A stretch of DNA of 64,000 nucleotides, from positions 3,720,001 through 3,784,000 of the forward strand of contig JAPNXP010000005.1 of the NCBI GenBank assembly GCA_028753945.1, given 5' to 3'. The position numbers and the translations under genes were made by a program. This DNA is from Hexactinellida sp. DTS-2022 (taxonomy: Eukaryota > Porifera > Hexactinellida). The first letter of the stretch is position 1, and each line of letters opens with the position of its first letter. Shown one piece after another: positions 2,441-53,141 of this stretch. The notes under the pieces are model-generated. The model was not told the DNA's origin and did no database searches. It saw only the letters and a list, made by a program, of their open reading frames with translations.

Positions 2441-2445
2441 AGAGA

Positions 2446-4170
2446 GTGCAAGTTTACCTAAATAATATCTGTCCAGTTCATTCAAAACATGGCTTTGAAG
2501 AAACTACAGTTAATTCATCAGATGAAAGAGATAGTGATGATTGGGAGTGTCACGGAATTGTTCCTGATTACCGAAATATACTGGAATATGAGCTACCCAT
2601 CGAGGAGGACGATTTCATGGATATAATTAATGAATATAAAGACTTATTTTCATCTGTTCCCGGTGTTGCAAGGATAGAAGAGTTCCAAATTAGAACAGAC
2701 AACAACACTGGTGCGGTTAGGATTCTCCCCAGAATGGTACCCCAAGCTTATCAAGAAGAAGTAACCTCACAAATAGAAGAAATGTTAAGGAGAAAGGTCA
2801 TCAGAGTTTCTAGTAGTTCTTGGTTGTTTCCTCCCGTTATGGTAAAGAAGAAAGATGGTTTTCTCAGATTCTGCATTGACTATCGAGGATTGAATAAAGT
2901 TACATCTAAAGACGCGTATCGACTTCCCCTTCCTGATCAATCCCAGGATAAATTGCATGGAATGAAATATTTCACAAAATTGGATCTCAATTCCGGTTAT
3001 TGGCAAATTCCAATTAGGGAAAGTGACAAACAGAAAACTGCCTTCTCCCCTGGGCCTGGGATGGGGTTATATGTATAGGCGTCGGAAATGGTCCCGCCAG
3101 TCCTTTGGGCCCAATCGATTCCGGGGCCGCTACATTCACGCCGAGTAGAGCCGGGTAGAGCCGGGAAGAGCCGGGTAGAGCCGGGTAGAGCCGGGTAGAG
3201 CCGGGTAGCCCCTTCGGGCTGCCCGGTCCATGCCGGGTGGCCGGGTGGGTCCGACGCCTATCGTTATATGAGTTTAATGTATTGCCATTTGGGCTGACTG
3301 AAGGGCCAAGTTCTTTCCAACGAATGATGGGTGAAGTGTACGTGGTCTCGAAAAGCTTAAAGATAATTTTATTGACGACATATTGGTCTTCTCACCGGAT
3401 AAAGTATCACATCTGAATGCACTTAGGAAATTATTCGACAGGTTGCGGAAATACAATTTGACATTAAGAGGCAGGAAATGTGAGATAGGAAGGAGCAAAG
3501 TAACCTACTTAGGCCATACCTTTTCAATTGCAGGAATGGAGCCGCAGATATCTAAGGTGGAATCTATAAATAGTTGGGCTCGTCCTAGTTGCAAAAAGCA
3601 AGTCAAGCAATTTTTAGGACTAGCGAGTTACTATAGGCGTTATATTCAGGATTTCGCAACAATAGCAGATCCATTGAATCGGTTACTCAGATCAGAAGTA
3701 GCTTTCGTTTGGGGTAGTCAGGAGGAAGCAACCTTTATGAAGTTAAAACATATACTAACTTCATCACCTGTTTTACAGTGCCCGAATTTAGCAAACAGTT
3801 CGAATTGTATACAGATGCCAGTGGGACCGGTCTAGGAGCAGTCTTAGAGCAGGATGGGCATGTAATTGCTTACTATAGCAGAACTTTGTGAGATGCGGAA
3901 AGGAATTATAGTACTATTGAACAAGAATGTCTGGCTATTGTTGAGTTACTCAAACGCTTCCGTCACTACCTAATCGGAAGACGGTTTGCTATAATTACTG
4001 ACCATAAAACATTGGAGTGGTTACACACTCAAAAGGCTGTAGGACGATTATGGCGATGGGGTGTGATAATACAGGAGTACGATTTTGATATTATACATAG
4101 AAGAGGTAAAGAAAATATCAACGCCGATGCATTATCTCGTTCACACGATGAAAACAGAGAGGAAAGTTGC
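2446..4170 (+). pseudogene. Ty3/Gypsy reverse transcriptase and RNase H (interrupted)
   Basis: RT motifs occur in order: FCIDYRGLN, YFTKLDLNSGYWQIPI, then, after the inserted MITE, VLPFGLTEGPSSFQRMM and the catalytic FIDDILVF (YxDD box) near 3370. A thumb/connection part with YLGH and FLGLASYYRRYI follows. RNase H shows [29 protein letters not shown] and NADALSR, giving the D-E-D-D set. A 189-bp MITE splits the RT palm at 3074-3262, a TGA sits at about 3889 within RNase H, and frames shift near 3360 and 3790. Family assignment is secure; activity is not possible as read. Confidence 0.9.
3074..3262. mobile_element. GC-rich hAT-type MITE inside the RT palm
   Basis: 189 bp with terminal inverted repeats (TATAGGCGTCGG / CCGACGCCTATC), flanked by an exact 8-bp duplication gttatatg (3066-3073 and 3263-3270). 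The RT reading frame joins cleanly once the insert and one duplication copy are ignored. The interior carries several copies of an 11-bp tandem motif (gtagagccggg). It is very GC-rich against AT-rich surroundings. TIR form and 8-bp TSD fit hAT; it has no coding capacity. Confidence 0.9.
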
Positions 4171-35640: not shown

Positions 35641-36130
35641 ATAATCATAAATATGTCCATACATAAAACTCCCGTTATAATGAAGTGCTCCGTAGCATAG
35701 TTCATTTCGTTATAAGTGGTGTTCGTGATAAACGGAGTTCGTTTTAAGCAGAATTCGTTAGAACCGGAGTTCGGTATAACCGGAGTAAAATCAATAGCTT
35801 ACAGGCTATATGGGATCGAAGGAGTTCCGGAGCATTGAACAACTTCGTTATAAGCAGGTACTTCGTTACATCCAACTTGGTTATAACGGGAGTTAACTAT
35901 ATTAGTATAACTAATAAGTCTCAGACAACTACTTTAAGTAGTACCTATGTTTTGTTCGGATTACAAAGGCATATATAAAATGTATTACTTCCCTAATCCG
36001 AACGAATTCACTAATCGGAACAGAAATTTTTGAATCAAAACAGCGCTGTTCGGATTAGCTAGGGCCCACTGTAGTATTTAAAATCTATTTTCGTATAATC
36101 TAATACCAAATAATGTAATTAAGAGCTTAC
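35641..36130. other. pogo-type MITE fragments in a RICTOR intron
   Basis: 35667-35890 has inverted 'actcccgttataa' / 'ttataacgggagtta' ends and many 'ttcgttataa' motifs, like the element at 36981. 35950-36080 carries 'tgttcggatta' repeats ending 'gggcccactgtagt'. Both look like pogo-type non-autonomous elements; edges are unclear. The remainder is intron after the donor at 36130. Confidence 0.5.
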
Positions 36131-36888
36131 TGTTAAAACTGTGGGAGAAACTCCAGAAATACCGCTCTGACTGGAGAAGGCAGAATCTCCTGTGTGAGTT
36201 CGATGCCTGAATTTCCCTGTTGAATCCATAACAATTATCTGGATCTTACTTGGGTCTCTCTTCATTTCCCAATTAAACTCATCAGCTGGAATGGGAGGAT
36301 AGAAGATTCGAGTACAGGCAACTTTATCCTTAGACATCTGAAGGATGGATTTCTTCTGGAAAGGGATAGCGAGTCCTATGTAGGATTTGGAAAAACTTGG
36401 GTTGATAGCTATATCTCTGGAGTTACGTCGATTAAAGCTTTGTGATTTGGGCATAGGAGGGAGAGAAACTGAATTATTTGGTACATCTAAGTCATAGTAA
36501 CTCGATATTGGCTCTGGTGAGCTATTCCGGAATATAGTATTAGTGGAGTCCTGGGAATCAAGTGAGGGAAATTGATACTCTGATTTTTCAGGAATATTCA
36601 ATGAATTGGAGAGTGGGTTCCGGTTTCCTCCGCTCCTAAGAGAGCTTGATTTACCGACATAAGACAGATCGTCCAGAATAGAATCTAGCTCTAGCCAGCT
36701 AGAAAGGTCTCTGAGCGAGTCGTTCGCTAGAGGCCATTTAGTCTCATTCCCATGACGCACTGAAACCCAGCCTAGCTTGTAGAGGTACTCAGTACCTGGC
36801 AGCGTCTTAGCAATGAGACAGATCGCGTAGTAGCAAGTCCCTCTTATAGACAGGACAGGAGAATTAGCACACATGTCAACCAGGTCAT
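36131..36888 (-). CDS. RICTOR, exon 4 of those seen (domain V and phospho-rich region)
   Basis: Encodes the last conserved N-terminal block of RICTOR (SIRGTCYYAICLIAKT, then LGWVSVRHG), a Ser-rich linker with SQSFNRRNSRD, and YIGLAIP, matching the human YIGLALP motif. The acceptor AG is at 36889-36890. The exon starts in phase 2/1: G from the previous exon plus AT gives Asp, so the joint reads NLIDDLVDMCANSP. The donor GTAAGC begins at 36130, leaving phase 0. At least one more exon is needed for the conserved C-terminus; none was found to the left in the window. Confidence 0.93.
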
Positions 36889-36980
36889 CTGTGGTGTAAT
36901 AAAAATACAATAAACTACAATTAAAAGAAGTTGGATATAATGAAATATTAGCACATAACGAATTCACTGAAGGATAAGTA

Positions 36981-37141
36981 CAGTGAACTCCCGTTATAAT
37001 GAAATACCCGCTTATATGGAAATGGAAATCTTCCCTCAGGGCACTAAATGCATTAATTAATATCCGCTTATAACGAATATTCGGATATAACGAAGGAATT
37101 TATAGGTCCCAAGCTCATCATAATAAAGCGCGAGTTGACTG
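36981..37141. mobile_element. 161-bp pogo-type MITE in a RICTOR intron
   Basis: Ends CAGTGAACTCCCGTTATAAT.../...GCGCGAGTTGACTG with TA on both sides, within the intron 36889-37920. The interior repeats 'cgcttataacgaa'. Non-coding. Confidence 0.85.
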
Positions 37142-37333
37142 TAGTTGATTTTTTCAATAAACTCATTCAAAATGATTGTAACTCAACAATATTATTTCAA
37201 TAAAAATATGTGTAGATTTTGCCAACTAAAATGAGTTGACCCTGAAGTCTTAGTCTAAGCTTATATCGCAATAAACCAATTGTGACATGACACCATGGAT
37301 TTAGTTATAACGTATATAAATTTCAGACATGGG

Positions 37334-37615
37334 GTCAAGCCTTTTCAAAAGGGCTTAAGTCCAAGCCCATCCCTTATCAGAAGGGCTTAAGCCCAAGCCT
37401 TTTTCTAAGCCCTTTTTGAAAAGGGCTTAAGTCCAAACTCAAGTCCTTAATAAAGGGCTTAAGTCCTTTTACTCTAATTATTTAGAAATCCATACCGTAT
37501 TTTATTGAATAAGTGCCTTGAAAAAGGGCTTGAAAAGGCTTGAAGCTCATCTATAAAGGGCTTAAATCCAAGTCCGGACTTAAGCCCTTTGGGGCTTGGC
37601 CCCATGCCTGTCAGT
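37334..37615. repeat. gggcttaag-rich element in a RICTOR intron
   Basis: Dense direct and inverted copies of 'agggcttaag' with flanks catggggtcaagcc (37327) and ggcttggccccatg (37597). The inverted ends suggest a MITE, but no target duplication was found. The predicted ORFs at 37540-37800 come from this repeat and are not supported. Confidence 0.65.
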
Positions 37616-37920
37616 TCAATTGTATTATACTTGAACCTCCCTTATCAGGGTACTCTCGTCCGGAGGGTTCCCGTTGCTGGGAATTTGCTCGGATCTCATC
37701 TCAGAAACTTATTGTGGACCCATTGTACATCATCAAAAATATATATAGGTCGAAATATCAAAAATTTTTAAACTGTATTATCTTAATTAATTTTTATTAA
37801 TCGAAATCACTTATGTTTTGTTTAATAAATTGGTGAGGCGATCAACTGCAAGAATACAACCTGAATATTTAAATTTAGAATCACCTGAGGAGAATTGTTA
37901 AACAACCGATTTCTACTTAC

Positions 37921-38143
37921 CGATAAGATTCTCTTGAATCAAAAGCTCAACTCCACACCTCTGTGAGCCGATGTGTCCCAGCGCCCAGATAGCAGCCTTC
38001 ATTTCCAAAACATCTCGAGAGTCGTCTAACCTCTGTTTTTTCACAGTATCAATCAGTGAGTCTATCAAATTATTGTTCTTGATATAACTACAACCATCAA
38101 TATGGGCAGCTAGTTGTGCGAATAAGTGAATAGGAACAAATAC
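37921..38143 (-). CDS. RICTOR, exon 3 of those seen
   Basis: Reads VFVPIHLFAQLAAHIDG, then a linker, then MKAAIWALGHIGSQRCGVEL, matching human VYLPIHLYGQL and LKASLWALGNIGSSNWGLNL. The acceptor is ...TTCATAG at 38144; the donor GTAAGT begins at 37920. 223 nt, entering in phase 0 and leaving with one base, consistent with both neighbours. This helical-repeat part helps scaffold mTOR complex 2. Confidence 0.95.
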
Positions 38144-38325
38144 CTATGAATAAAATAAACAAATCCATAAATGTAATTATAATATAACTCAAATATTAAC
38201 GATATTTATTTAGAAAATGTATCATTCTTAGTAATTTGTTTTAATTAAATATTTAAACAATCAGATTTAATACAAATTTTTTGATCCTAATTGAGTCGTG
38301 TAGATTATTATAATCTTACTATCTA

Positions 38326-38836
38326 TCTATACTATTAAAACACAAGCCTGGGTGGGTATGTATATATATATATATATATATTTGTTTGTATGTTCCGAGT
38401 TGATTGAAGAAAGTGGACGGTTTCCAAATGTGATTTTTGGCATATAACGGTAACTTTTGGCACTCGCCAACAAGTTGAGATTTCCACTCAAGATTTCTCA
38501 CACCTCGACAAGTTATGACGTCATTGTCACATTTCGAGTAACCTGAAAAGTCACTTAATCGCACATAATTACCGCACTCTAAGAGATAAAAATATGAAAA
38601 TTTTATAGAACATGTACATTAATGATGCGGACACGTTGGTCACACCAGATCGCCACTATGCTAACTCATTATCGCATGATGACGTAATCATTAAAATTTC
38701 ACATTGTTAAATTTGACTATTTAGGCCTATTTACGCTTTATAATCAATATTAGGAGTATATAAATCACACACCAACAGCGAAGCGGTTGGTGGTTGTGTT
38801 CTGCCGCGAAGCGACCTAGCAAGCGAAGCGCGATAG
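38326..38836 (+). mobile_element. Non-autonomous Helitron copy 2, in a RICTOR intron
   Basis: Starts TCTATACTATTAAAACACA and ends ...CTAGCAAGCGAAGCGcgatag|T, an imperfect version of copy 1's terminal hairpin. 511 bp. It has the site 'caatattaggagtatataa' uninterrupted, the empty site for the MITE in copy 1. A (ta)n run lies near the 5' end. It sits in the intron 38144-38915; the minus-strand ORF predicted here is not supported. Confidence 0.75.
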
Positions 38837-38915
38837 TTATACATAAAACGCATTAAATTTCATCCAAAATCTAGAATTTATATCCGAAAAAAATACTCTG
38901 AGTAGACAAGTTTAC

Positions 38916-39230
38916 CTGTTTCTTGGTCAGATCCGTCTCTGATACGGTTGATCGCCTCTTAAACTCACCTCGTTCTGTGTGTACATAGTGAGTAAACCCT
39001 TCGGCTATTGACCTTTCTACCAACTCCACATACTCTATATTTTTAACCTCGATCCATTTCTTAACTTGCTGCTGCAGAACTCCAGTTGATTTGAACAGGG
39101 AGTAGTTCTCTTCTAATGAGAAGAGACGCATGAAGACAAGATAGCTAGACAGGCACAAGTGAGATATCTGAGGCTTCAAGGATGAGAAAGTCAGCAAATG
39201 TTTATTTATCTCGCATGCTTCATCTAATAC
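38916..39230 (-). CDS. RICTOR, exon 2 of those seen
   Basis: 105 codons, phase 0 at both ends: VLDEACEINKHLLTFSSLKP, then a linker, then EVKNIEYVELVERSIAEGFT. It matches human ILDEACEDKANLHALIQMKP and YNSKYVDLIEEQLNEALT. The acceptor is TGTAG at 39231-39235 and the donor CAG|GTAAA starts at 38915. The start is set by the splice site, upstream of the first in-frame TTG at 39197. Confidence 0.95.
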
Positions 39231-39956
39231 CTACACCGTATATGTAAAGAATAATATCAAAAGATTATTTGATCAAAATTCTGCATTCGTATCGCCTGTA
39301 ATCACATCTCAAATTAATTAATTCATTGTTAGACTGCATAATCCGACAATTTGGTAATCCGACCTTTTTTTCCTATCCCAAGGGGTGCCGTTTAAACAGG
39401 TTCTACTGTACTTGGAAAAATCTAGGTATTTTTAGCGAGCTCGTAAATGGAGATTATCCATATTCTATTGAGATGGATGGTAGCGGTCTGACGAGAGCTC
39501 AATAACTCAATGATCCATGGTCTAATGTGCAAATAACTAATTATATAATATCACTCTTACAGTAATATGAAATTTGATCCATTCAGTTCGGTAATTTTGG
39601 TAATTTTCATGTGGGAATTCAGTGGGAATGGAAAGGGGATTAATATTCAATACTCACAGCAACTCTGGTCAATAAATTATTAATTTGTAATAAAGCAATT
39701 TGCAATTAGTGAAATTTCTTTAAAATGTAAGTTAGAATAATTGAGAGCAAGGAATTATACATTAAATAGGTTGAAGTCAACAATTCAGTTTTTTTACCCT
39801 GATGACAAGAATATAGAAAACTTAGGACATCAATTCAAAAGTTCCAAAAGAATCTCAGATGGAGAAATAATTATGGCACTTTACATGATCCGCTTGAGTA
39901 TCTGCACTAAAGTTGAGTCTACCTTAAATGTTATGAAGTGACACTAAATATGACTA
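39231..39956. other. RICTOR intron sequence
   Basis: Intron between exons 1 and 2. 39333-39420 looks like a short pogo-type remnant (gactgcataatccgaca ... aacaggttctactgta). The 66-aa plus-strand frame at 39741-39941 shows no known motif and is not supported. Confidence 0.5.
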
Positions 39957-40309
39957 CCTTATTATAGGAAATTAACGCGCCATGAAATTAACGCGAATTT
40001 CTCCAAATCGCGTTAATTTCCTTCGCGATAATTTCATGGAGCGTTAATTTCCTGCTATTTAGCAAAATTATACAATGGATGGACAAACTTCCGAGCTACA
40101 TATTTTAAGATGTACAACTAGGTTGAAAGGGTATACCATGTCTATCAAGTAGATTGGAAGCCTATTTGGGCACAGTAAATAGTATTTAATATGGAGATTA
40201 ATAATCCTGAAATTTTTTCTAAAATTTATTCGAGATAATTTCATGTATTTGAAAATGTTCAGCTCCAATTAGCGTTAATTTCATGGCGCGTTAATTTCCT
40301 TTAACAAGG
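39957..40309. mobile_element. Palindromic MITE copy 1, TA target, in a RICTOR intron
   Basis: Ends CCTTATTATAGGAAATTAACG.../...GCGTTAATTTCCTTTAACAAGG flanked by TA. The ends carry clustered 'cgcgttaatttc' motifs in both directions. A 383-bp copy is at 59424-59806. TA duplication fits Tc1/mariner-type mobility. Non-coding. Confidence 0.88.
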
Positions 40310-40588
40310 TATATGAATAACCTCCAAATTAACCTCCAAAAATTTCGCCATATAAATTATTGTCTGTCTAATTTCGTCAATTTTCCATAAAAGTGGCGAA
40401 ATCTGTTTCTTTTCCCGGATTACTTCCCTCTGTCAGACGAGGGGAGAATTCAAGGGAATAATGCTGAATTATTGTTTAATTTACGTCATTTCAATTTACG
40501 TCATTTCAATTTTCGTCACACCAAATGACGAATTAAAAAATGCTGACATTTTCGAAGTTAGTGTATTACGGTTAAGAAATAAGTATAC

Positions 40589-43186
40589 CTTAATGGCTTC
40601 TTCTCTAACAACAGAACTCTCATCATGAATGAGCAGTACCAGCAGTCGAATGCCCTGAGAAGAGAAGTTAGTCTTCTGACATCTGAGGAGAGTGCGAAGG
40701 AATTTAATGCAGTACACACGGGTATCTTGACAATCATTAGACAAGGCTGCCACTTGAAGCAAAGAGTACGACTGAGGACAAGTGGGGCCGTAATAAACAA
40801 GTGTTGGCAATAAAAGCTTAATTAAGGTCTTATTTGGAGAACGTAGAATAAATAGATCCAATAGAAGACCAGGATAACCCAACTCTAACAGAATATTCCA
40901 ATCTAAATGAGCAATGTGTCCCAAGAATAGAAAGTAAGCCTGTGCTAACGAACTTGACATATTGTGTTCTTTTAAAATTCTGTTTTTATTCCCTTCTTCG
41001 TCCAAAAACATTCTGATATTGTCTAAAATTTCGTGCAGTAGAGGAAATAATTGATTCCCCCATGCAGAGCTGATTAGAAATGTGATCAAATTGAGTCCAG
41101 CCTGCGCGTAATGGTCAAACTCAGTTTTAAGCGGGAGTTTATAGAACAGCTGACTCGATGGAAGATAAAACTCGAGTATTCTCTTAATCAGTCTCAGTTC
41201 GGTTAGCTTCTGTACAACTGCATTTGTTGGCTGAATAGTAGTCAATAGAGAGTTTATCTTAGCCCAGTCCCATTTGGAGAAATTGCTAACAGCTCCTGCA
41301 TTGGTGATGCTATCAGAAATATCATCAATACACTTTAGAACGCCAGATTCCTCAGATCGATTAGCGAGCACACTCGATAGTAGATTCGGTTTGGGTGGCT
41401 TAGCCAGTAGCAACAAAAACCTACTGTAGTTTTCTTCGGTAGAGTCTCGCTCCAATAGATAGAGTCTCTGGAGAAGAACAGCTACTTTAGAGGCTTTGGA
41501 TAACTGACCTCGCTTCGCTTCTGTATTTAAAAAATTTGTAATCGAAGTGTCTGTCTGCTCTGCAATATCAAGTCCGAATGGAAACAGTCTCTGTAACGTC
41601 ACTAGTATCTCTTTAGCTAGAATAATAGCCTTCACAATGATAGGCTCTGGAGCTCGAATTGACATTTCCAACAATCTTATCAGAATGTGTTGTTCGAAGA
41701 GAACAGACATAACTAGAACTCGATAGCATTGCGCAAGATCAGTCCTACTCTTAGAAACATACGGCATTGTTATCTCCGATTCATAAGTAACCCAATCCTC
41801 CGCCAAGGAAGCTAATCCCTGGTTGTAGAACGGACTGACGAGAGATCGCGTTCTCCTGTCCGACACATTTAACGGCAGAGACTCGAAAAGCTGGTCTATG
41901 CTTGAAGAAGCCGGAGGCGCTATAAGTAATATTCTGAACAGTGCGTCTAGCATTGCGTGCTGCTGTAGGGGCGTGGCTAACGGCAGGACAGCTAGGAATC
42001 CCTTTAGAGAAGAGCATTCGTGATCCTGCGTAAGCGAGAGGAACCCGGACCAACTGAGAAAGAGAGAAGTGAAGGCGCAGGCACAGGCATTGATGGCTTG
42101 CTTGCGGGCTTGTTCGTGTGCCCTCTCCAGGTCTGCCGGGGTCTTGGTATCCTTCCGAGAAGCCTCGAAGAAATGAGGCATGTAATGCGGATCCGTGAAT
42201 GGTGCCAACAGAGGCTGCAGCTCATGTAGCAGGTTTACAACCAGTCGGGTAGACGGGTGGCTCAGTAGACTCACTACTGAAGCAATTAGACTCTCATTCA
42301 TGTGCATATCTGAGCAGGTCAGCACACCCTGCACTAGAGTCCTAATCCCGCCTGTCTCCTGTAGGAGCTGCGGCTGTTTGGCAGCCAATAGTCCGAGCAG
42401 AGCTAGGCAGGTTCGAAACACTTTATTATCAGTATCAGCAGAGCTAGCTATCGATATGAGTGAAGCTAGGAGAGGGCGAGATATCTCTGACGTGTGTTTA
42501 TGTATAAATAAATACAGCAACCGTAGACCCTGTACTAACTCCATGTCGTATCCACCTTCCAGTATCCCAGCATCAAGACTGCGTGTAATGAGCACATCAA
42601 CTCCATAATTCATCATTTGTCTGTAAGCCTCTTGATCCACTTCCGGAGTGCGTAGGAGTACTCTGAAGGACTGAAGGGCAGATGCCCGCACTGCCGCCCA
42701 TTCCGAACAGAGAGACAGTCTAATCGCCTGCACCAGCTCTTCTATTGAGGCCTCGTATGTGACTGGCGATTGTTTGTCAGCGCCAGGTCCACTTCTCAAT
42801 CGGAGGAGATACGAAATGCTGTCCAGCAGGTGAGTGTGACTCTTCACATAATCTTGTACGGGATCTTGTGGGGAAGTTTCAGTGGGCGGAGTCCCTACTC
42901 GCTTGGGAGTGAGACTATCCATTGCCATAGTAGAGTCAACAGGTACGATGGAAGGACATTTTTCCTTTTCCTTGTCACAGCTCCTTTGATCGGACACTGG
43001 AGGACCTTCCTTGTGCAGCTCGACCAGCTGGGAAACGGTTTCTCTGAGGCTCCTGGTCTTCTTCTGTATCTGGTATGTCTTCTTACGGAGCATTCTGGAG
43101 CTGGAGGGGAAGCGGAGCGGGATGGAACTCGAAGAGTCACGATCAGATTGGTTCTGTCTGTGATAATTAGCGAATTTACTTGTCAT
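40589..43186 (-). CDS. RICTOR, exon 1 of those seen (N-terminal helical repeats)
   Basis: An 866-codon open exon encoding the N-terminal ARM/HEAT-like region of RICTOR, the mTOR complex 2 scaffold that with mSIN1 presents AKT and other AGC kinases. Matching blocks include EEWAAVRASALQSFRVLLRT-like, EECSSLKGFLAVLPLAT-like, NWNLI-like WDWAKINSLL and HLAHLDW. Near the end DTRVYCIKFLRTLLRC and HDESSVVREEAIK match human RLYATKHLRVLLRA and HDKNKTISSEALD. ATG at 43186 is the first after an in-frame TAG at 43214. The donor AAG|GTATAC starts at 40588. No frameshift in 2.6 kb. Confidence 0.95.
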
Positions 43187-43713
43187 TTTGCTAATGAAAA
43201 ATAATATATTTTTCTATTGTGTCAGCCTGTCACGAAAAAATTGATTGGGTGTTAGAGGAGATCCTTTTCACCCGAACAATATTCTTAGAAGAAATTGTTC
43301 CCCTCTAAGGAATCTTATTTTTCTGGCCATGGTTAATTAAGTGCCCAACTTCGGCTACGGGGTCCTAATAGATAGAGAGTAAAATGCCTTGCTCATCCAA
43401 GGGAAATAATGTTCGGGGGAACAAAAAATGGGGAAACAGGATCTACTATCACACCGGCCGGACAATTTTGTATTCCAGACCAAACATTACTGAAATATCT
43501 GGACGGGTTATAACTTATAATAATTGTGCACAGATTCCCTATCTTTTTAAGCGAGTATCAAGTTTGAATTATGCCAGATGCATCCTAACAGGACTACAAT
43601 CTTTACCTTGATGATGTTCATTGCTACGGGAATGAATCCAGCCTATTGGAATGGTTCAACCTAATGATCATAATTATTAAGAACACGTCTACTTGAAATG
43701 TGAAATTTGTAAG
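43187..43713. promoter_or_regulatory. Intergenic gap between RICTOR and the DPH5 remnant
   Basis: About 530 bp between the RICTOR start codon and the first recognisable DPH5 codons, head-to-head. It should hold the RICTOR promoter and 5' UTR, but no core motif stands out. The plus-strand frame at 43384-43611 shows no known similarity. Earlier DPH5 exons were looked for and not found. Confidence 0.4.
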
Positions 43714-45640: not shown

Positions 45641-45995
45641 GTTGTTCATATCCGGTTCCGGCCGGATATCCGGTAACTGGTCGGATACCAGGGACGGAAC
45701 CGGTCGGGTCTGACCGGCACCGGTCTACCGGTCGGGTCGGGTCGGGTCGGGTACCGGTCGGAAGCTTGACCGGCCGGTCGAGATCTCTATATGATCTATT
45801 CGATATCATAATATCATAGTTTGTTTTCTATTATTTATAAATTATTGTTAGCTATGATTGACCGGTCGACCGGCCGGTCGGGTCGGGTCAAATTTCCAAC
45901 TGCACCGGTCGGGTCGGGTCATGAAAATCCCGACCGGTTCCATCTCTGTCGGATACAGCCGGATACCGAAATTAGAACCGGATATCCGGTACAGG
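45630..45995. repeat. GC-rich ccggt/gggtc repeat element
   Basis: About 365 bp dominated by 'accggtcgggtcgggtc' and 'ccggatatccggt' motifs in both directions, with about 85 bp of AT-rich DNA in the middle. 'tatccggccggat' at the left and 'ccggatatccggtaca' at the right resemble inverted ends, but no target duplication was found. It interrupts the P-type transposase C-terminus. The Gly/Arg/Ser-rich peptides here are translations of the repeat. Confidence 0.7.
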
Positions 45996-46297
45996 CCTAA
46001 TTTTGAGACCTGTTCGTCGTCCAATTCCTCAGAGGAGGTTAGTTCTTCTACTCTCAATTCATTCTTAAGAATAGTTTTTAAGGAAATTATAGACTCGGAG
46101 CGCATAACTTCAGTTAAACTAACCAGAAATCGACCACCGCTCATCTGTTTGTAATGAGAAAATATCCTCTCAAGAGGATCGGTTTGCAATCTGCCTGTTA
46201 GTATATACTGATATCCAGCTGATAGTAGGTCAGAGCTTAAGTCAGCAATGGCACGATTAGTGAATGTAAAAGCTTTGAAAGTTTGCTTGGTAAGTAC
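45996..46297 (-). pseudogene. P-type transposase, C-terminal piece
   Basis: Reads TKQTFKAFTFTNRAIADL, then LQTDPLERIFSHYKQMSGGR, a signature I associate with the C-terminus of P/THAP9-like transposases. It joins in frame to the body across the OTU element (GLT then KQTF) once one 8-bp duplication is ignored. The frame runs into the GC-rich repeat at about 45996. It acts in P-element-type cut-and-paste; broken here. Confidence 0.75.
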
Positions 46298-46407
46298 GAG
46301 TGTGAAGTTGGCTTAGTATTCAACCGAGCACACTTTAAATCTCTATTTGATCCGCTTCCTGTCATCCGATTGATTCAAATTTGGTATCATTAGAAAGACT
46401 AGCGAAA
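46298..46407 (+). repeat. Left TIR of the OTU-bearing transposon
   Basis: 110 bp, identical by eye to the complement of the right end. A second, direct copy of its inner part ('cgagcacactttaaatctct' onward) lies at about 46457-46535 as a subterminal repeat. Confidence 0.92.
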
Positions 46408-46744
46408 AAAATTTCAAAAATTTCCTTAAAAAAAATTTCTTTACAAATTTTTTTTCGAGCACACTTTAAATCTCTATTTGATCCGCTTCCTGTCATCCGA
46501 ATGATTCAAATTTGGTATCATTCGAAGAATAGAGACTATTCTAATATTATCAATATGAATAATATATTGTAAATTTTGTTTGGCTGTTTAATAATCGTAA
46601 TTCATTCAATAGTCATTTAATACAAAAAATTGATAAAATGGGATAGTTTATACATATATAATCACTTTTCCTTTAATTATGCTAAATTGAAACTTAATTT
46701 TGTTAACAATTAGTTGTCAATATAGTTTGTTGATGTAGCAATTA

Positions 46745-46890
46745 ATAGAGATTTTGATGGAGAAGTTGATAGAGATTTTGATAGAGATGTTGATAGAGAT
46801 GTTGATATGTAGATGTTGATAGAGATGTTGATAGAGATGTTGATAGAGATGTTGATGTAGATGTTGATAGAGTTGATGTAGATGTTGATA
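46745..46890 (+). repeat. gttgatagagat minisatellite
   Basis: About ten copies of a 12-bp motif with small gaps, in the non-coding left part of the OTU-bearing transposon. T-rich DNA follows to 47040. Confidence 0.85.
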
Positions 46891-47151
46891 GAGCTTGTTT
46901 GTATTTTTTGTTATATTTTCTTTTTTTTGTAGTTGTTTTATTTTTTTGTACTTTTTTTATTTTTTGTGTTTTTAAATTTTTTGTAGTTGTTTTATTTTTT
47001 GTGTTTTTTATCTTTTTAATTTTTTTCTATATTATTATTATTTCAATAGAGAATTGTGCGCCGAATGAATAGTAAGAGAGTAGCTGGTAGTATTTAATGA
47101 ATGAATGAAAAATAGTATTAAGCTAATTAAACATACGAATATACCAAAAAA

Positions 47152-47829
47152 TTAGCATTGATATAATTCTAAAATAGGTTCGTAATGGTTGCTACTATGT
47201 CTAATGTACAAAGATCCAGCCTGATTAGCTGGCTTTGTTATTTCATCCAAACTGGCCCCGTTTCCTGAAAAGACCATCCATTTATTGCCCAGGTCACTTG
47301 TATACACCCATATATCAGTTTTAAAAAGCATGGCCACAGTGAATAACTCCAAGTCTGTACCTCAAGTCTTATTATTGCGCATATTTGATTTGATTAGGTA
47401 ATCTTTTGTATTACGATAATTAATAACCGACCTCGGAAATTTGTTTCTAATAAATTTGTGACATAAGTCATGAAATCTACCCATCATATTATCAGTTATA
47501 GGTAATCGCATTTTATGATAATTATCAATACTACCTGTAATCAAATAAGTGAGAGTCGTAAATAAACAATTCCCATCTTTTGGAATGGGAAACATTCGTG
47601 AAGGCTTTAATTGATTTAATTTATGCTTATATTTACTATTGCTTATGCAAATTACAGGATTGATTTTAGTAAATCCTAATTCATCGCAAATTTGTATTTG
47701 GCCCAAGAGAGAAAATTTTTTGAATTCAGGCAGTAAAAATTCGACGCTCCCTAATGCTAAAATATCTAAATCGGTCATGATTTCAACATTTTCTGCAGGA
47801 ATTGTTAATTGTTGTTTCTGAGGTGGCAT
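47152..47829 (-). pseudogene. OTU-type cysteine protease-like protein, one nonsense codon
   Basis: ATG at 47829. The OTU catalytic loop PIPKDGNCLF (Asp and Cys nucleophile) lies near residue 80, and the His motif SSNHYEPIL near the end. A TGA at 47362-47364 falls where OTU folds usually have the Trp of WGT.VE (here stop-GTDLELF); the frame is open on both sides, so a single TGG-to-TGA change is likely. OTU enzymes cleave ubiquitin or ubiquitin-like chains. Why a transposon carries one is unknown. It is downstream of the transposase on the same strand. Confidence 0.8.
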
Positions 47830-48331
47830 GTGTTGTTATTGTTAAATGGGAAGTTTTACAACCTTCAAGGCTATCAGCTAAAATTTTAATCTTTTTAGTT
47901 TTTGAGGAAGCGGCATTCCTATCAAAATCTTTAAATTGACTAAATACTTTTTTCAATCTTACGAGGAAGTGGGCTAATGTAACTAGTTTTTACCTTTCTC
48001 CTCTTTACAATGTTCCTCATTAACTAATTCACGTTTCAAATTTTTTGTTTGAACATTTTCTGAGCCAAAGGTTGAAATGCAAATTGAAAGGCTGCCATCC
48101 TATCGTCTATGTGAGAATATATTGTACGAATGAAATCACCAGGTCTTATATTAGTTTCAGATTTAAATATAATGTTTAACAATTTTGAACCAATTTTCTA
48201 CTACTGCGTTGCTATCAGTCGTTTTTCACTGACTCTTACTGTGCTTAGTATGATTCCAGTCCAAAAGGGAAGTATCGGAAAATAATAGGTCAATAAATAT
48301 TCAAGAATATCTGGAAAATACGATAAATTAA

Positions 48332-50981
48332 CTATTTTGTTAAACGCGATGCATCTTCAGATTGAATTTTATCTAAGCAATTGTTATATAATGTATCAAA
48401 ATGTCTGCCAAATGGAGATTGTTTTCGATAAGTCAGACCATTTTCCATAAATTTTGATTCTTTATCTATTTGTTCTTGCTGAAAATCATTTATCTCCATT
48501 TCTCCTTTAACTAATACTTCCAAATCTAGCAAACTACGATTAACGGTAGAAGACATGAATTCACTGCTCAATAAATAACATAACGATGTGAATACAAGGT
48601 TTATTTCGAGAATTCTGCTACTCTTCAAAATTGTGCCAATTGCATGTAATATTAATTGTTTCAAGTGTTTTTTTATTTTATAATTTTTCTCCAATTTATA
48701 ACTTAACCCATGCATAATATGTGCAGAGCAGAGATGGAGAACAGTTGGATAATTTAGTTTTGTTGAATTGAGATTAACGAATCCCCAGCAATGATCCAAA
48801 TAACTAACTATGTTAATTCTATTAAATGCTAAGCAGACACTATGCATCATCACCCAGGCTGACCCAGCTATAATCCATTTCAATTTGGGAAACATATAAC
48901 TCTCTATTTAAAACTAATTTACTAGTTAAAACCCATTTGTTTAAAAAGTGAGTAATTTCTGCAGTGCCATGATCACTGCTTATCATTTCAGCAACAGGCA
49001 TTGGACTAATGAAAACATCTGGATGCTGTAAAGTGAGTGCATAGTAATAAATCTTATTAGTACAAGTAGAGGGCTTACTAATGAGCGAACCGGTTGCATC
49101 CAAATTCAATACGATGTTAGATTTCTTGAACATTTTAAATAATTCTATCTGCTTTTTTGAATAAAGATGTATAATAAATGGCTGCTGGGCTACATATTGA
49201 ATATACCCGAAAACAGGGCCTTCCGCTAATAGCGAACGGAAATATTGTTGAGTTGCTAAGATATCTTCCATATAATCATTAGAAAATCTACATTTGGATT
49301 TAAACTCTGATTTAACTCGTCGTAAACATGCTTGAGATTGTATATTAGTAAAATTTCCATGAGGCAACCCTTTATTGTTAGTGCTATTGAACTGTTTATA
49401 AAATATGGTATTAATAGGACTTTGAACTAAAACGTTCCCCATTTTTTCCCTTTCAATGCCTGATAGATTGCGAGAATGGGTAGTACTACCGTCAAAGTGT
49501 TCTAGTGAAAAAGTTCCTTCGCACTTAAATTGTACAGCAACCGTGTCTATTTCTTTTGGGTCAATCTTTTTCTCAATGGAAAAATGAAAAGATAAACAGT
49601 TCGTAAATTTGCAAACTGCCCATCCTTGAAAATATGGGGAATGTGATTTTCGGCTATTGTCTTTCTTTATCCAATAATTTTTAAATTTCAGGACACATTT
49701 CGGATTTAACTCAGACAACTTCTTTGCGAATAAATTGGTCCAATTTCTATTTAACCTTAGACTACCAGCTGAATCTGGAGAACTCACATTGTGCCATTCA
49801 TCTAATTCCAGATAAAACTCACCATATTCCAGATCACAATTAGGGAGCACATCAGTTTCAGAGGAGCATTCATCAATGGCTTTGTCATATGATTTATCAT
49901 CAATTGCGTATTTAGATAGTGCTAGTAATTGATCAACAGCATCAGCTGATGAATCTCTTGTAAAATTTTGAAATTTACATACATAATTTGTATATAGTAT
50001 TTTCAAATCTCTTAGTCCTTTATTTGATTCGCTTTTCAATTTATGGAACCAATTAACAAAATTCGTGAGTATGTCACTACTCAAAAGAATATAGTTCTGA
50101 TCGAAAAGATTTTCAATTAGTCTAATACTGTGATAATCAGAATCCTGCAATGTGGACACAATCCACAAAATCAGCAATGGATACTCCCAATTATTTTCTC
50201 ATTGACCTTTGATATTAATGTAGATCCAAATTTCTCACATTCGTCAATGTGACTTAATTTTACAAATTGTAAAAAACCAGGAATAACTCGAGCTGCATTA
50301 CAATCAAAATATTTGCAGCCATCGAGCCATAATTTTGATTCCCAATTAAGGAAAGTATGAAATAACCTTTTCCCCATACAATCTTCTGATTCTAGAACAT
50401 TGGATTTAAATTCTTCTATTAGATTATTGTATATGGTGAATTCAGATGCTGCGGAGGAGCAAACGATTAGCAAGTTAGTATCATTTAAATCAAGCTCAAT
50501 TGACTCCCAAATTAACTCACGTGCGGATAGTTCACCAGTGATGTCCTTCCCTATCATTTTTTCACAAATTGATCTGATCACAACTGAGGTGACGAGGGAA
50601 GTTCTGATCTCATTTGATAGTAAATTCAAATTCAAACTTATACAAAATGTTGTTTCTGCATTGACTGAATAAGTTTGCTCCACAATAGTTTGAATGCCGT
50701 ATGAGTTTTTAAACCATTTAAAATACAATTTAAGTCTCAACGAAGGTCTGTTACGACCGTATAATTCTTTTGAAAGCTTGCCCCAAACAGAATTCGGAAG
50801 TGTATGACTATTAGAGAGGTCTTTTTTCAATAAAGGGAATGATTTCGACCTGTTTGTTATTATGTCTACGAATTGTTGTAGATCATGAGGTAATTCTAAA
50901 GAAATAATACAGAATAGGATTTATTGCTTCTATTTACACAATAATTATATTTATATGGAACTTACCTTGGAACGATTCCAT
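48332..50981 (-). pseudogene. Putative DDE transposase of the OTU-bearing element
   Basis: A 16-nt first exon (50966-50981, ATGGAATCGTTCCAAG, donor GTAAGT) joins an exon starting at 50895. The catalytic region reads NIVLNLDATGSL (first Asp), PVAEMISSDH, IEMDYSW (second Asp), then HSVCLAFN and LCSAHIMH, a C..H motif as in Mutator-type transposases. A frameshift lies in an AAAA run at about 50200 and another at about 48850-48880, so it is broken as read. The N-terminal ~400 residues are not recognised. The superfamily call is moderate. Confidence 0.65.
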
Positions 50982-51390
50982 ATAGAACTAAGTAAAAGTT
51001 GCCTGAAGCAGTGGTGATTGTTGAGTGATGATAGGTATGGTATGAATGAATATAAATTTCGGAAATATGATAGTTAGTATTATTTCTTTGTATTAATAGT
51101 TTTTAAAATGATCTTGTTTACAATTCGTCACTACATTGGTTAATTACATTGCAATGTTTTCCAAAATAACAAGTCCCATTTATGTAGAGCCCTTACGACT
51201 TGCAATGTATTTGTACACAAAGGTAACCAGTTACTACTCTTTCTAATGATACCAAATTTGAATCAATCGGATGACAGGAAGCGGATCAAATAGAGATTTA
51301 AAGTGTCTCGAAAAATAATTTGTAAAAATTTTTTTTTAAAAAGGAAATTTTTGAAATTTTTAAATTAATTTTCATATGTAATGAAACCTA

Positions 51391-51500
51391 TTTCGCTAGT
51401 CTTTCTAATGATACCAAATTTGAATCAATCGGATGACAGGAAGCGGATCAAATAGAGATTTAAAGTGTGCTCGGTTGAATACTAAGCCAACTTCACACTC
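51391..51500 (-). repeat. Right TIR of the OTU-bearing transposon
   Basis: 110 bp, complement of 46298-46407. A subterminal direct copy of the inner part lies at about 51235-51308, mirroring the left end. Confidence 0.92.
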
Positions 51501-53141
51501 GTAAGTCCGATGAGTTGACTGGAATTCCAAGTTTCAAGCCAATCACTAATTGCTCGAAGAAAATCTATTTTATCATTCGATACGAGAGCGTTTCCTATTC
51601 GCGTTGGGTGGAAGCGTTCCTTAGCATTAACTACTAACCACTAGGCATGGATAAGTTCGAGGAAGGCGATAGTGGTATACTCTTCGGGTAAATAACTACG
51701 AATCGCAGAAGTGGTAATTGGTTCAAATACTGCAAGAGCAAGTGGCACGGATTGCTTATTGTTTCCAGGATGGAGAACAGAATAAGATAACTTTGGCGCT
51801 TTCTTTAGATTAGCATTCAAGGTTAAATCATGGGTGTGTACTTGGTGAAGATGAGACCAAATAACGAAGCCTGGAGGAATGTTGAAAACTGTATCTTGTA
51901 GATTAAAGATAAATTGTGGAACCTGGAAAAATCGGGAAGATATAAGATTATTTCGAATATTCTTAACTAAGTGTACTGTATCGAACATCAAGAAAATATG
52001 CTGAGCAGAATTAGAAGGGTTCTTGATGCAATATTCTCTATTATCAAGAGGGAAATTCTTTAATAAAACTCTATATGCTTTCACGTTAGTTGAATGGTTG
52101 TCTGCAATTACTCCTCGAATGTGAAATTTTCCTTCTTTTAGGATTGAAATACAGTTCAAGATTCCATTGTAAACATCAAGGAAAGTAAGCTTAACAATAG
52201 GTATTGCTTTTATAACATAAGGAATAGTTTTCTTCAACGAAACGACCATGAAGCACAATATACTCTTGAACATGTTTAGACCACCGTCACAACCTATTAC
52301 ACTTTTTCCATCGAATTGGACTTGAGTTTGGAGGTACATCTCATCTAGTAGGATAACAACGTCATTTCCAATTAGCGATTTATTTCTAAATGTACAGAGA
52401 GCTTTACTGCTATCGACTGTGTGTGAGTTGTGCATTTTGAGTAAACTTTCACTAGGCAAAGGTATAAATTTGTTGAGAAGTTTGTAAGCAGCATTAGAAG
52501 TATACCGGAGCAGTAAAGAAAATCTTAAATCTACTGAAGGATAGTGACGCCCACGGGGATGATAAAAACGCAACTTTATCAACTCTTTGATTACTTCGAT
52601 ATGGTAGTTGTGTGACGCATTTCTACAGTAGTTTGGGAGGTTAGTGAGCATGTCTAAGGAAGTCAATTTGCATCCGGCTGCTGTGGATATGTAGTCAGGA
52701 AGGGGAACAGGAGATGATTCAAAACTGAGTATAAAGTGCAAATCATTTGTTACATGTACACACTCTTGAATCACAGCTATTCCTGAGTCTATCTTGACTC
52801 GATGTGCAGTAACTCAAAATTCTGAAACATCAACATGAAGTTTCGGTATTCATCTGCTACTTTCATATAGGAGACAACACTTTCCTTGGTAATTACTGTA
52901 TATTTATCCATAAAGAGAGACAGCTCATCTTTTTGAAAAACACGTGGTTTGGGAGACTTTCGCACTCTGATGGGAATAACTGATTGGCTTTTAGAAATAG
53001 ACGAAGGATGTATAGTTGGAATAGGGTTGAGAGAATAATTAAGTCGAACTCTTTCTTTACCAAGAGAAAGGCAAGTACTTTCGAAGTGATCGATACAAAT
53101 CCTTGAGCTATCAGTTATGACGAAATCCTTAAGCCCACCAT
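51501..53141 (-). pseudogene. P-type transposase, THAP end and catalytic body
   Basis: Starts with the second half of the THAP finger (SRICIDHF: Cys and His of the C2CH set), a basic linker and a helical region. Then the RNase-H-like body: VVILLDEMYLQTQ (first Asp), GVIADNHSTN (second Asp) and LMFDTVHLVKNIRNNL, all typical of P/THAP9 transposases. A frameshift lies at about 52800, and a TAG at 51641-51643 follows ELIHA before the frame continues to the OTU element's insertion point. Confidence 0.88.

Follow-up and report, generated by a model that had tools for sequence, protein, structure and literature searches.

A Probable Cut-and-Paste Transposon Family with an OTU Domain Fused to Its Transposase in a Hexactinellid Sponge

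Introduction

Proteases of the ubiquitin and SUMO type recur in unrelated transposons. In Ginger1, a C-terminal OTU (ovarian tumor) or Ulp1 cysteine protease is found on the transposase, the terminal inverted repeats (TIRs) have a length of 44–270 bp and the gene has 0–4 introns (PMC2836005). Rehavkus elements are described with a 9-bp target duplication and a single open reading frame (ORF); they have a PHD finger, and a minisatellite precedes their 3′ TIR (PMC6446971). The subject of this work is an element of 5,207 bp located at positions 46296–51502 of a 64,000-nucleotide stretch of Hexactinellida sp. DTS-2022 (contig JAPNXP010000005.1, positions 3,720,001 to 3,784,000; hereafter the window). 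Its relatives were searched for in the genome (112.4 Mb, 18 contigs) and are labelled as loci (L019–L043 and further numbers); four subfamilies, A–D, are distinguished.

A preliminary description of the window considered the element to be a DNA transposon pairing an OTU gene with an unusual DDE transposase, and called a cysteine protease on a cut-and-paste element uncommon. Precedents that it did not name are the OTU fusion of Ginger1 (PMC2836005) and the OTU of Helentrons. The analysis that follows makes it likely that the window holds a 5.2-kb, no longer functional member of a cut-and-paste family with long, mostly Foldback-like TIRs, 8–9 bp target duplications, and a transposase with a C-terminal OTU acting in cis.

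Results

The OTU Domain Is Part of the Transposase Reading Frame

In intact relatives, the transposase and a C-terminal OTU are encoded by one ORF of 1255–1349 amino acids (aa), with a shorter form of 1028 aa in L038. In detail, the ORF has 1260 aa in L027–L030, 1255 aa in L031–L034, 1261 aa in L037, and 1349 and 1343 aa in L035 and L036, respectively. A zinc-finger-like motif is followed by a D-D-C..H-E core, a linker and the terminal OTU. These intact copies rule out the two-gene reading of the preliminary description, in which the OTU was a separate gene paired with the transposase. The OTU is in frame in all five aligned subfamily representatives, which show 35–45% aa identity to L027. Such sequences are numerous in the genome, with at least 95 matches for the 452-aa transposase piece of the window and at least 151 for its OTU piece.

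Judged from its sequence, the window copy is dead: it has frameshifts and an internal TGA, and no longer encodes the full protein. Transposase-like pieces extend from 50920 down to 48036 on the minus strand in several frames, and OTU pieces lie at 47835–47362, up to the TGA, and at 47361–47152 on the same strand. The parts of the gene are the following:

50966..50981, minus strand: predicted exon 1 (MESFQ), with donor GTAAGT, intron 50896–50965 and acceptor TTTCTTTAG, in frame to ELPHDL (a prediction from sequence)
50171..50895, minus strand: transposase N-terminus, beginning where exon 2 is predicted to start
48840..50198, minus strand: 452-aa transposase piece, with CKFTNC (zinc-finger-like) at 49596–49613, LDATG at 49089–49103 and EMDYSW at 48864–48881
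48281..48859, minus strand: transposase piece with CSAHIMH (C..H) at 48710–48730
48187..48213, minus strand: SNAVVENWF, whose Glu would be the third catalytic residue, judging from alignment with relatives
47704..48186, minus strand: frame-shifted remains of the core end and of the core–OTU linker
47152..47703, minus strand: OTU, C-terminal domain of the transposase ORF, with the Cys codon of DGNC (47566–47568) and the His codon of NHYEP (47185–47187) kept, and TGA at 47362–47364 in place of Trp

The motifs first noticed in the window are all confirmed here, that is, DATG, DYSW and C..H of the transposase (as LDATG, EMDYSW and CSAHIMH) and Asp-Gly-Asn-Cys and His of the OTU. The suspected change of TGG to TGA also holds, as Trp occupies this position in all six other aligned OTUs (five from the same family and one from another element).

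For subfamily B, a longer exon 1 is predicted from the sequence, and its splicing would yield an uninterrupted frame of 1326 aa. As a separate observation, this predicted exon (L027:2890–3109; also in L028, L029 and L030) contains a hydrophobic stretch and then VIGGIEINPGP in all four copies fetched. The latter resembles the 2A ribosome-skipping motif of RNA viruses and of retrotransposons without long terminal repeats, with Gly where Asp is usual.

The OTU Domain

The window OTU, with the TGA read as Trp, matches PF02338 with E 1.7e-7 (32.2 bits against a cut-off of 23.3). Among the four relatives scanned, L027, L031 and L035 score above the cut-off and L038 just below it (22.9 bits). An OTU match was obtained by Pfam in all five proteins of the alignment, and the catalytic Cys and His are invariant in the seven aligned OTUs. 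Against PDB sequences, the OTU profile finds OTUD5 (7e-7), OTUD1 (1.4e-6) and OTUD3 (2.3e-5), as well as 6dx2 (1.8e-7), a chain named RNA-dependent RNA polymerase which we take to be a viral OTU. By sequence, the domain is a genuine member of the OTU family and a predicted cysteine protease.

A different OTU element was met at L044 (2147–2827 and 3906–4400), where an integrase-like ORF, recognised by eye and with no Pfam match, is located upstream of a 227-aa OTU ORF. This OTU is related to that of the family (E 8.7e-23 to the family OTU profile). The genome list contains many OTU frames of this size (about 227 aa), which suggests that elements of the L044 type are abundant.

Association of the OTU with the Transposase and Selection on It

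When the match lists were compared, 69 of the 91 transposase places proved to have an OTU match on their strand no more than 7 kb downstream; for 55 of these 69, it lies within 1.3 kb. When two loci found on reading the exceptions (L041 and L062) are added, the OTU is present in at least 71 of the 91.

The ratio of nonsynonymous to synonymous changes (dN/dS) was estimated for L031 and L037 (81% aa identity), the sole well-conditioned, unsaturated subfamily pair; L035 and L036 have too few changes to be used. The values are 0.19 for the OTU (bootstrap 0.12–0.31), 0.21 for the core (0.15–0.30) and 0.36 for the N-terminal region. Two distant pairs, in which dS is saturated, gave 0.20 and 0.32 for the OTU and 0.24 and 0.31 for the core. 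The linker changes fast, with an aa identity of 0.32 in the two distant pairs and 0.76 in the close pair. From the one well-conditioned pair, the OTU appears to be under about the same constraint as the catalytic core.

The Transposase Core

The five representative proteins share C-x4-C...H-x6-H (zinc-finger-like), followed by two Asp residues separated by 74 or 75 positions. CSAH(I/L)MH is located 44–47 residues past the second Asp and the Glu of SNAxVENW 221–233 residues past it. The residues of these motifs are invariant in the five representatives and their spacing is nearly constant.

In the Pfam scans, the OTU is the only credible domain, the other matches being weak, unrelated and below the cut-off (best FadR_C, E 0.0062). 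For all five proteins there was no match up to E 10 to the MULE (Mutator-like element) domain PF10551, to a PHD finger, or to any transposase model; on a KDZ-type enzyme, the evidence is this Pfam result. By eye, these loci are not among the PF10551 places listed (at least 150). Thus, of the OTU and MULE profiles proposed in the preliminary description, PF02338 scores above its cut-off whereas PF10551 gives nothing. As to a profile placement outside the DDE transposases, which that description had regarded as fatal to its reading, no transposase match of any kind was returned and only the weak unrelated ones appeared.

Profile comparison with hhalign, for which the profiles are thin, gave a score of 15.0 for the core against six PF10551 proteins of the same genome, compared with 12.3–21.4 for 20 shuffles. 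The other comparators were a seventh PF10551 protein alone (18.0), P-like proteins (17.9), the reversed profile (18.9) and the OTU profile (21.5). Membership in Mutator by sequence gained no support from Pfam, the PDB profile search, NCBIfam and hhalign with its shuffled and reversed controls, which gave nothing significant. The label DDE transposase rests on the motifs, the TIRs and the target duplications, because sequence models and profile comparison fail. The transposase assignment of the preliminary description is therefore kept on the order of the core motifs and the element's structure, but it has no sequence-model match. Likewise, its likeness to Mutator/FB-NOF is retained for the architecture, which is the best structural match found, but it receives no sequence support.

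PF10551 itself was scored in at least 150 matches of the genome, from 961 first-look candidates, and seven of them, inspected by eye, fall into several distinct kinds. Viral contigs gave 22 pattern matches, none of which was confirmed as a relative.

Element Boundaries and Terminal Repeats

The inverted ends of the element start with ACGAGTGTGAAGTTGGC. The two TIRs, beginning at 46296 on the left and ending at 51502 on the right, are identical over their first 112 bp, slightly more than the 110 bp first claimed, and a repeat finder gives arms of 122 nt with 98% identity. The subterminal direct copies reported earlier were found at both ends. The terminal features are:

46296..46407, plus strand: left TIR, at the element's 3′ end with respect to the gene; its 112 bp match the right end perfectly, and it begins with ACGAGTGTGAAGTTGGC
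51391..51502, minus strand: right TIR, at the element's 5′ end with respect to the gene
46456..46526, plus strand: left subterminal direct copy of the inner TIR, with 2 mismatches in 71 against 46325–46395; a variable tandem array in relatives
51234..51306, minus strand: right subterminal direct copy of the inner TIR, 99% against 51396–51468
46745..46893, strand not assigned: minisatellite with 12.5 copies of the 12-bp unit ATAGAGATGTTG, lying between the end of the OTU and the 3′ TIR
46895..47033, strand not assigned: A/T-rich tandem array of 18/35 bp adjoining the minisatellite

At least 77 genome matches of the TIR end sequence, the window included, are listed (40 of 89 candidates scored), so the ends are not due to chance. 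The tandem units of the TIRs in the relatives are of about 160 bp in subfamily A, 173 bp in D and 335 bp in C (overall about 158–173 or 335 bp), and their copy number varies. The TIR of subfamily B has 712 bp and is without an internal tandem array. The minisatellite and the A/T-rich array, located past the OTU stop and before the 3′ TIR, are shared by the window and L019–L023, all of subfamily A; repeat finding did not detect the 12-bp minisatellite in the copies of B, C and D to which it was applied.

Three further observations concern the ends. L043, a derivative of 2.8 kb, has perfect inverted arms of 454 nt extending past the ACGAG end. Among the TIR matches listed from the 40 scored candidates, at least eight pairs lie 2.8–3.5 kb apart, and all listed ones are on one contig (C1). 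The flanks of L020 (524–1004 and 9056–9536) are mutually inverted and not a direct duplication, as though the element were centred in a palindrome.

Insertion Site and Target Duplications

The element interrupts a P-like transposon (TNP RNase H, PF21787, E 1.6e-10), the two parts of which are:

45848..46295, minus strand: target P-like transposon, left part
51503..52813, minus strand: target P-like transposon, right part

When the joined flanks were used as a query, matches at 21 genome places ran across the joint; in 18, at least 183 of the 189 bases were covered, with an identity of 94–99%. Four of the P-like copies were read and show GGTAAGTCCGATGA as the empty site. The preliminary description's imperfect 8-bp duplication (TAAGTACG/TAAGTCCG, one mismatch) is not real for the window copy: the ACG on the left is the start of the TIR, and TAAGT is the only repeat around the element. 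A plausible history is an original clean 8-bp duplication with a later loss of three bases on the left.

Among 17 elements bounded end to end, 12 have exact duplications (eight of 9 bp and four of 8 bp), in agreement with the length of MULE-type duplications (about 8–11 bp), and two (L022 and L025) have 8-bp duplications with one mismatch.

Mobility

Intact copies differ at 5–16 of 3780 coding bases in subfamily B and at 3–10 of 3765 in subfamily C, and most of these near-identical copies have exact duplications. Since near-identical copies thus occupy different sites, mostly with exact duplications, their sequences indicate that subfamilies B and C moved recently. Within the six aligned copies of subfamily A, three frameshifting gaps and one segment of 10 bases are common to the window and L019 and distinguish them from the other four. 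L019 occupies a different site, where an exact 8-bp duplication of its own flanks it. Because these frameshifts are shared at different sites, an already broken element of the window type was probably mobilised in trans by intact relatives.

Neighboring Genes

Exons of the host gene RICTOR (a TORC2 subunit) are located nearby at 36122–43213 of the window on the minus strand (PF14664, E 3.5e-46; PF14668, E 1.2e-12). Together with the introns, this gene marks the genome as eukaryotic. A reverse transcriptase fragment is found at 2443–3075 (PF00078, E 1.5e-9). Six contig ends of the genome, inspected by eye for telomere repeats, showed only satellite-like sequence.

Discussion

Proposed Role of the Fused OTU

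In the mechanism that we consider likely, the zinc-finger-like part of the transposase would bind the repeated units of the TIRs, and the D-D-E core would cut and join, so that the element is excised and inserted with a stagger of 9 bp, sometimes 8 bp. The tethered OTU would strip ubiquitin in cis from the transposase–DNA complex, its close partners or adjacent repair proteins. Such removal may spare the transposase from proteasomal turnover, or may steer repair at the sites of excision and insertion. The one reason for preferring action in cis is that the OTU is fused to the transposase. Both outcomes have been considered for other elements: a role of the OTU in the repair response is proposed in the discussion of Ginger1 (PMC2836005), and Helitron deubiquitinases are proposed to shield transposition proteins from the proteasome, in an account which calls transposon OTUs untested (PMC9741609).

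Several observations weigh against this interpretation. The core is recognised by none of Pfam, NCBIfam and the PDB sequences (best PDB E 0.39), and single-sequence structure predictions of two window pieces had a mean pLDDT confidence of 34 and 30, which is unusable. In the hhalign comparison, the core seems no closer to the Mutator-type and P-like proteins of its own genome than the controls are, a weak negative given the thin profiles. The OTU Asp is kept in six of the seven aligned OTUs and is Asn in L038. Three of the 17 bounded elements (the window, L020 and L043) have no duplication of 8–9 bp, and the frameshifts shared with L019 could have spread by gene conversion instead of mobilisation in trans. 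Moreover, 22 of the 91 transposase places are without a listed OTU; six of these 22 were read. Besides the two that do contain an OTU, these six comprise two recent internal deletions (L040 and L042) and two truncated or interrupted copies, namely L024 with the N-terminal half of the transposase only, and L039, whose match does not reach the Glu motif within the 3.5 kb that were read. L040 is 99.6–99.8% identical to L027 but without about 680 bp that comprise nearly all of the OTU; compared with L031, L042 is missing about 865 bp, which include nearly all of the OTU. Both young copies keep the Glu motif of the core in an open stretch, with frames of 989 and 965 aa, and judging from these frames an OTU-less transposase might be made and could still transpose.

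The preliminary description had taken OTU-less copies inside the same TIRs as decisive against the pairing. Such copies exist, but the two read in detail are deletion derivatives more than 99% identical to OTU-bearing elements. Among the shorter elements, L025 (2.7 kb) keeps OTU fragments, and the 2.8-kb derivative L043 has no OTU and a degenerate transposase. On this sequence evidence, the OTU-less derivatives weaken the association of OTU and transposase without overturning it.

Alternative Explanations

The deletion of the OTU in some young copies, together with the abundance of other OTU-bearing loci as a source, would suit a functionless passenger, that is, a captured gene fragment kept by hitchhiking. 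This is very hard to reconcile with an OTU that is in frame in all five representatives, invariant in Cys and His in all seven, and constrained at a dN/dS of 0.19, and the passenger reading is disfavoured by this conservation. An active OTU could also serve as a processing protease, like those acting on viral polyproteins, which cuts or trims the large transposase. Its position at the extreme C-terminus behind a fast-changing linker agrees with this, and some viral deubiquitinases also process viral proteins (PMC9741609); cellular OTUs, however, generally act on ubiquitin, and we regard processing as quite improbable. Less improbable, though still unlikely, is that the OTU counters host silencing or defence, for instance ubiquitin-regulated chromatin factors or factors of the PIWI-interacting RNA pathway, and not the transposition complex. 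Many bacterial and viral deubiquitinases oppose ubiquitin-based host defence, and those of transposons have been speculated to overcome a limit on transposon inheritance (PMC9741609), but a free antagonist needs no tether and the fusion in intact ORFs favours action in cis.

A further question is the nature of the enzyme to which the OTU is fused. The transposase may not be Mutator-like, being instead an undescribed lineage or an enzyme of P, hAT or KDZ type, and this seems possible, if doubtful. The core matches neither PF10551 nor any other transposase model, and its comparison with the Mutator-type profile of the same genome was not significant. On the other hand, the order D..D..C..H..E fits the Mutator/hAT/P group. 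The duplications of 8–9 bp, the long TIRs, the single gene and the 3′ minisatellite of subfamily A also fit the description of Rehavkus (PMC6446971). From its sequence, there is an open chance that the core represents an undescribed lineage. Only tentatively do we suggest the stronger proposal that the lineage lies outside the catalogued transposase families and that its OTU, acting in cis on the transposase–DNA complex, is needed for efficient transposition. If this were true, at least three lineages, namely the present one, Ginger1 and Helentrons, would have acquired an OTU on their transposition enzymes, and the removal of ubiquitin would be a recurrent requirement of animal DNA transposition. 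The family offers a natural experiment, as it has subfamilies that moved recently and retain an intact OTU, purifying selection on the OTU that can be measured, and near-identical sisters that lack nearly exactly this domain. This makes the need of a transposase for its own deubiquitinase directly testable.

Comparison with Known Systems

The C-terminal OTU fusion itself is known from other transposons, and the transposase partner here is unrecognised by the libraries searched. In the literature consulted, mainly titles and the openings of abstracts, with Repbase outside its scope, no Mutator, Foldback or Rehavkus element with an OTU was found. OTU is not mentioned in the main text of the Rehavkus survey (PMC6446971), nor do "OTU" and "protease" occur in the main text of the Tm1 paper (PMC3169594). 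A mention of "ovarian tumor" in soybean was rejected, as it refers to otubain annotations of genes on bacterial artificial chromosomes and not to a transposon OTU.

The architecture shows a good resemblance to Mutator elements of the Rehavkus/Foldback type. As in Rehavkus, exact duplications are of 9 bp in 8 of the 17 bounded elements (and of 8 bp in 4), one ORF is present in intact copies, and a minisatellite occurs, in subfamily A only. Unlike Rehavkus, no PHD finger is detected, and the comparison with Rehavkus and NOF is by description only; membership is therefore not claimed. Long TIRs with internal tandem repeats, in subfamilies A, C and D and not in B, are a likeness to Foldback. The Mutator/Foldback element Tm1 of root-knot nematodes has similarly composite, repetitive TIRs and mostly 9-bp duplications (range 8–10), but differs from this family in its 496-aa Phantom-type transposase with a FLYWCH finger (PMC3169594).

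With regard to the OTU, the family resembles Ginger1 in being a cut-and-paste element with a C-terminal OTU on the transposase. Unlike Ginger1, which has a Gypsy-integrase-like enzyme and CCGG/CCGT duplications, it shows no integrase match, duplications of 8–9 bp and ORFs of up to 1349 aa. Membership in Ginger1 is ruled out by the length of the duplications and the lack of an integrase match in Pfam. Helentrons and Helitrons with OTU or tegument-like deubiquitinase domains also carry an OTU on a transposon protein (PMC6431247, PMC9741609); theirs is joined to a rolling-circle RepHel enzyme, whereas in the present family it is joined to a putative cut-and-paste transposase.

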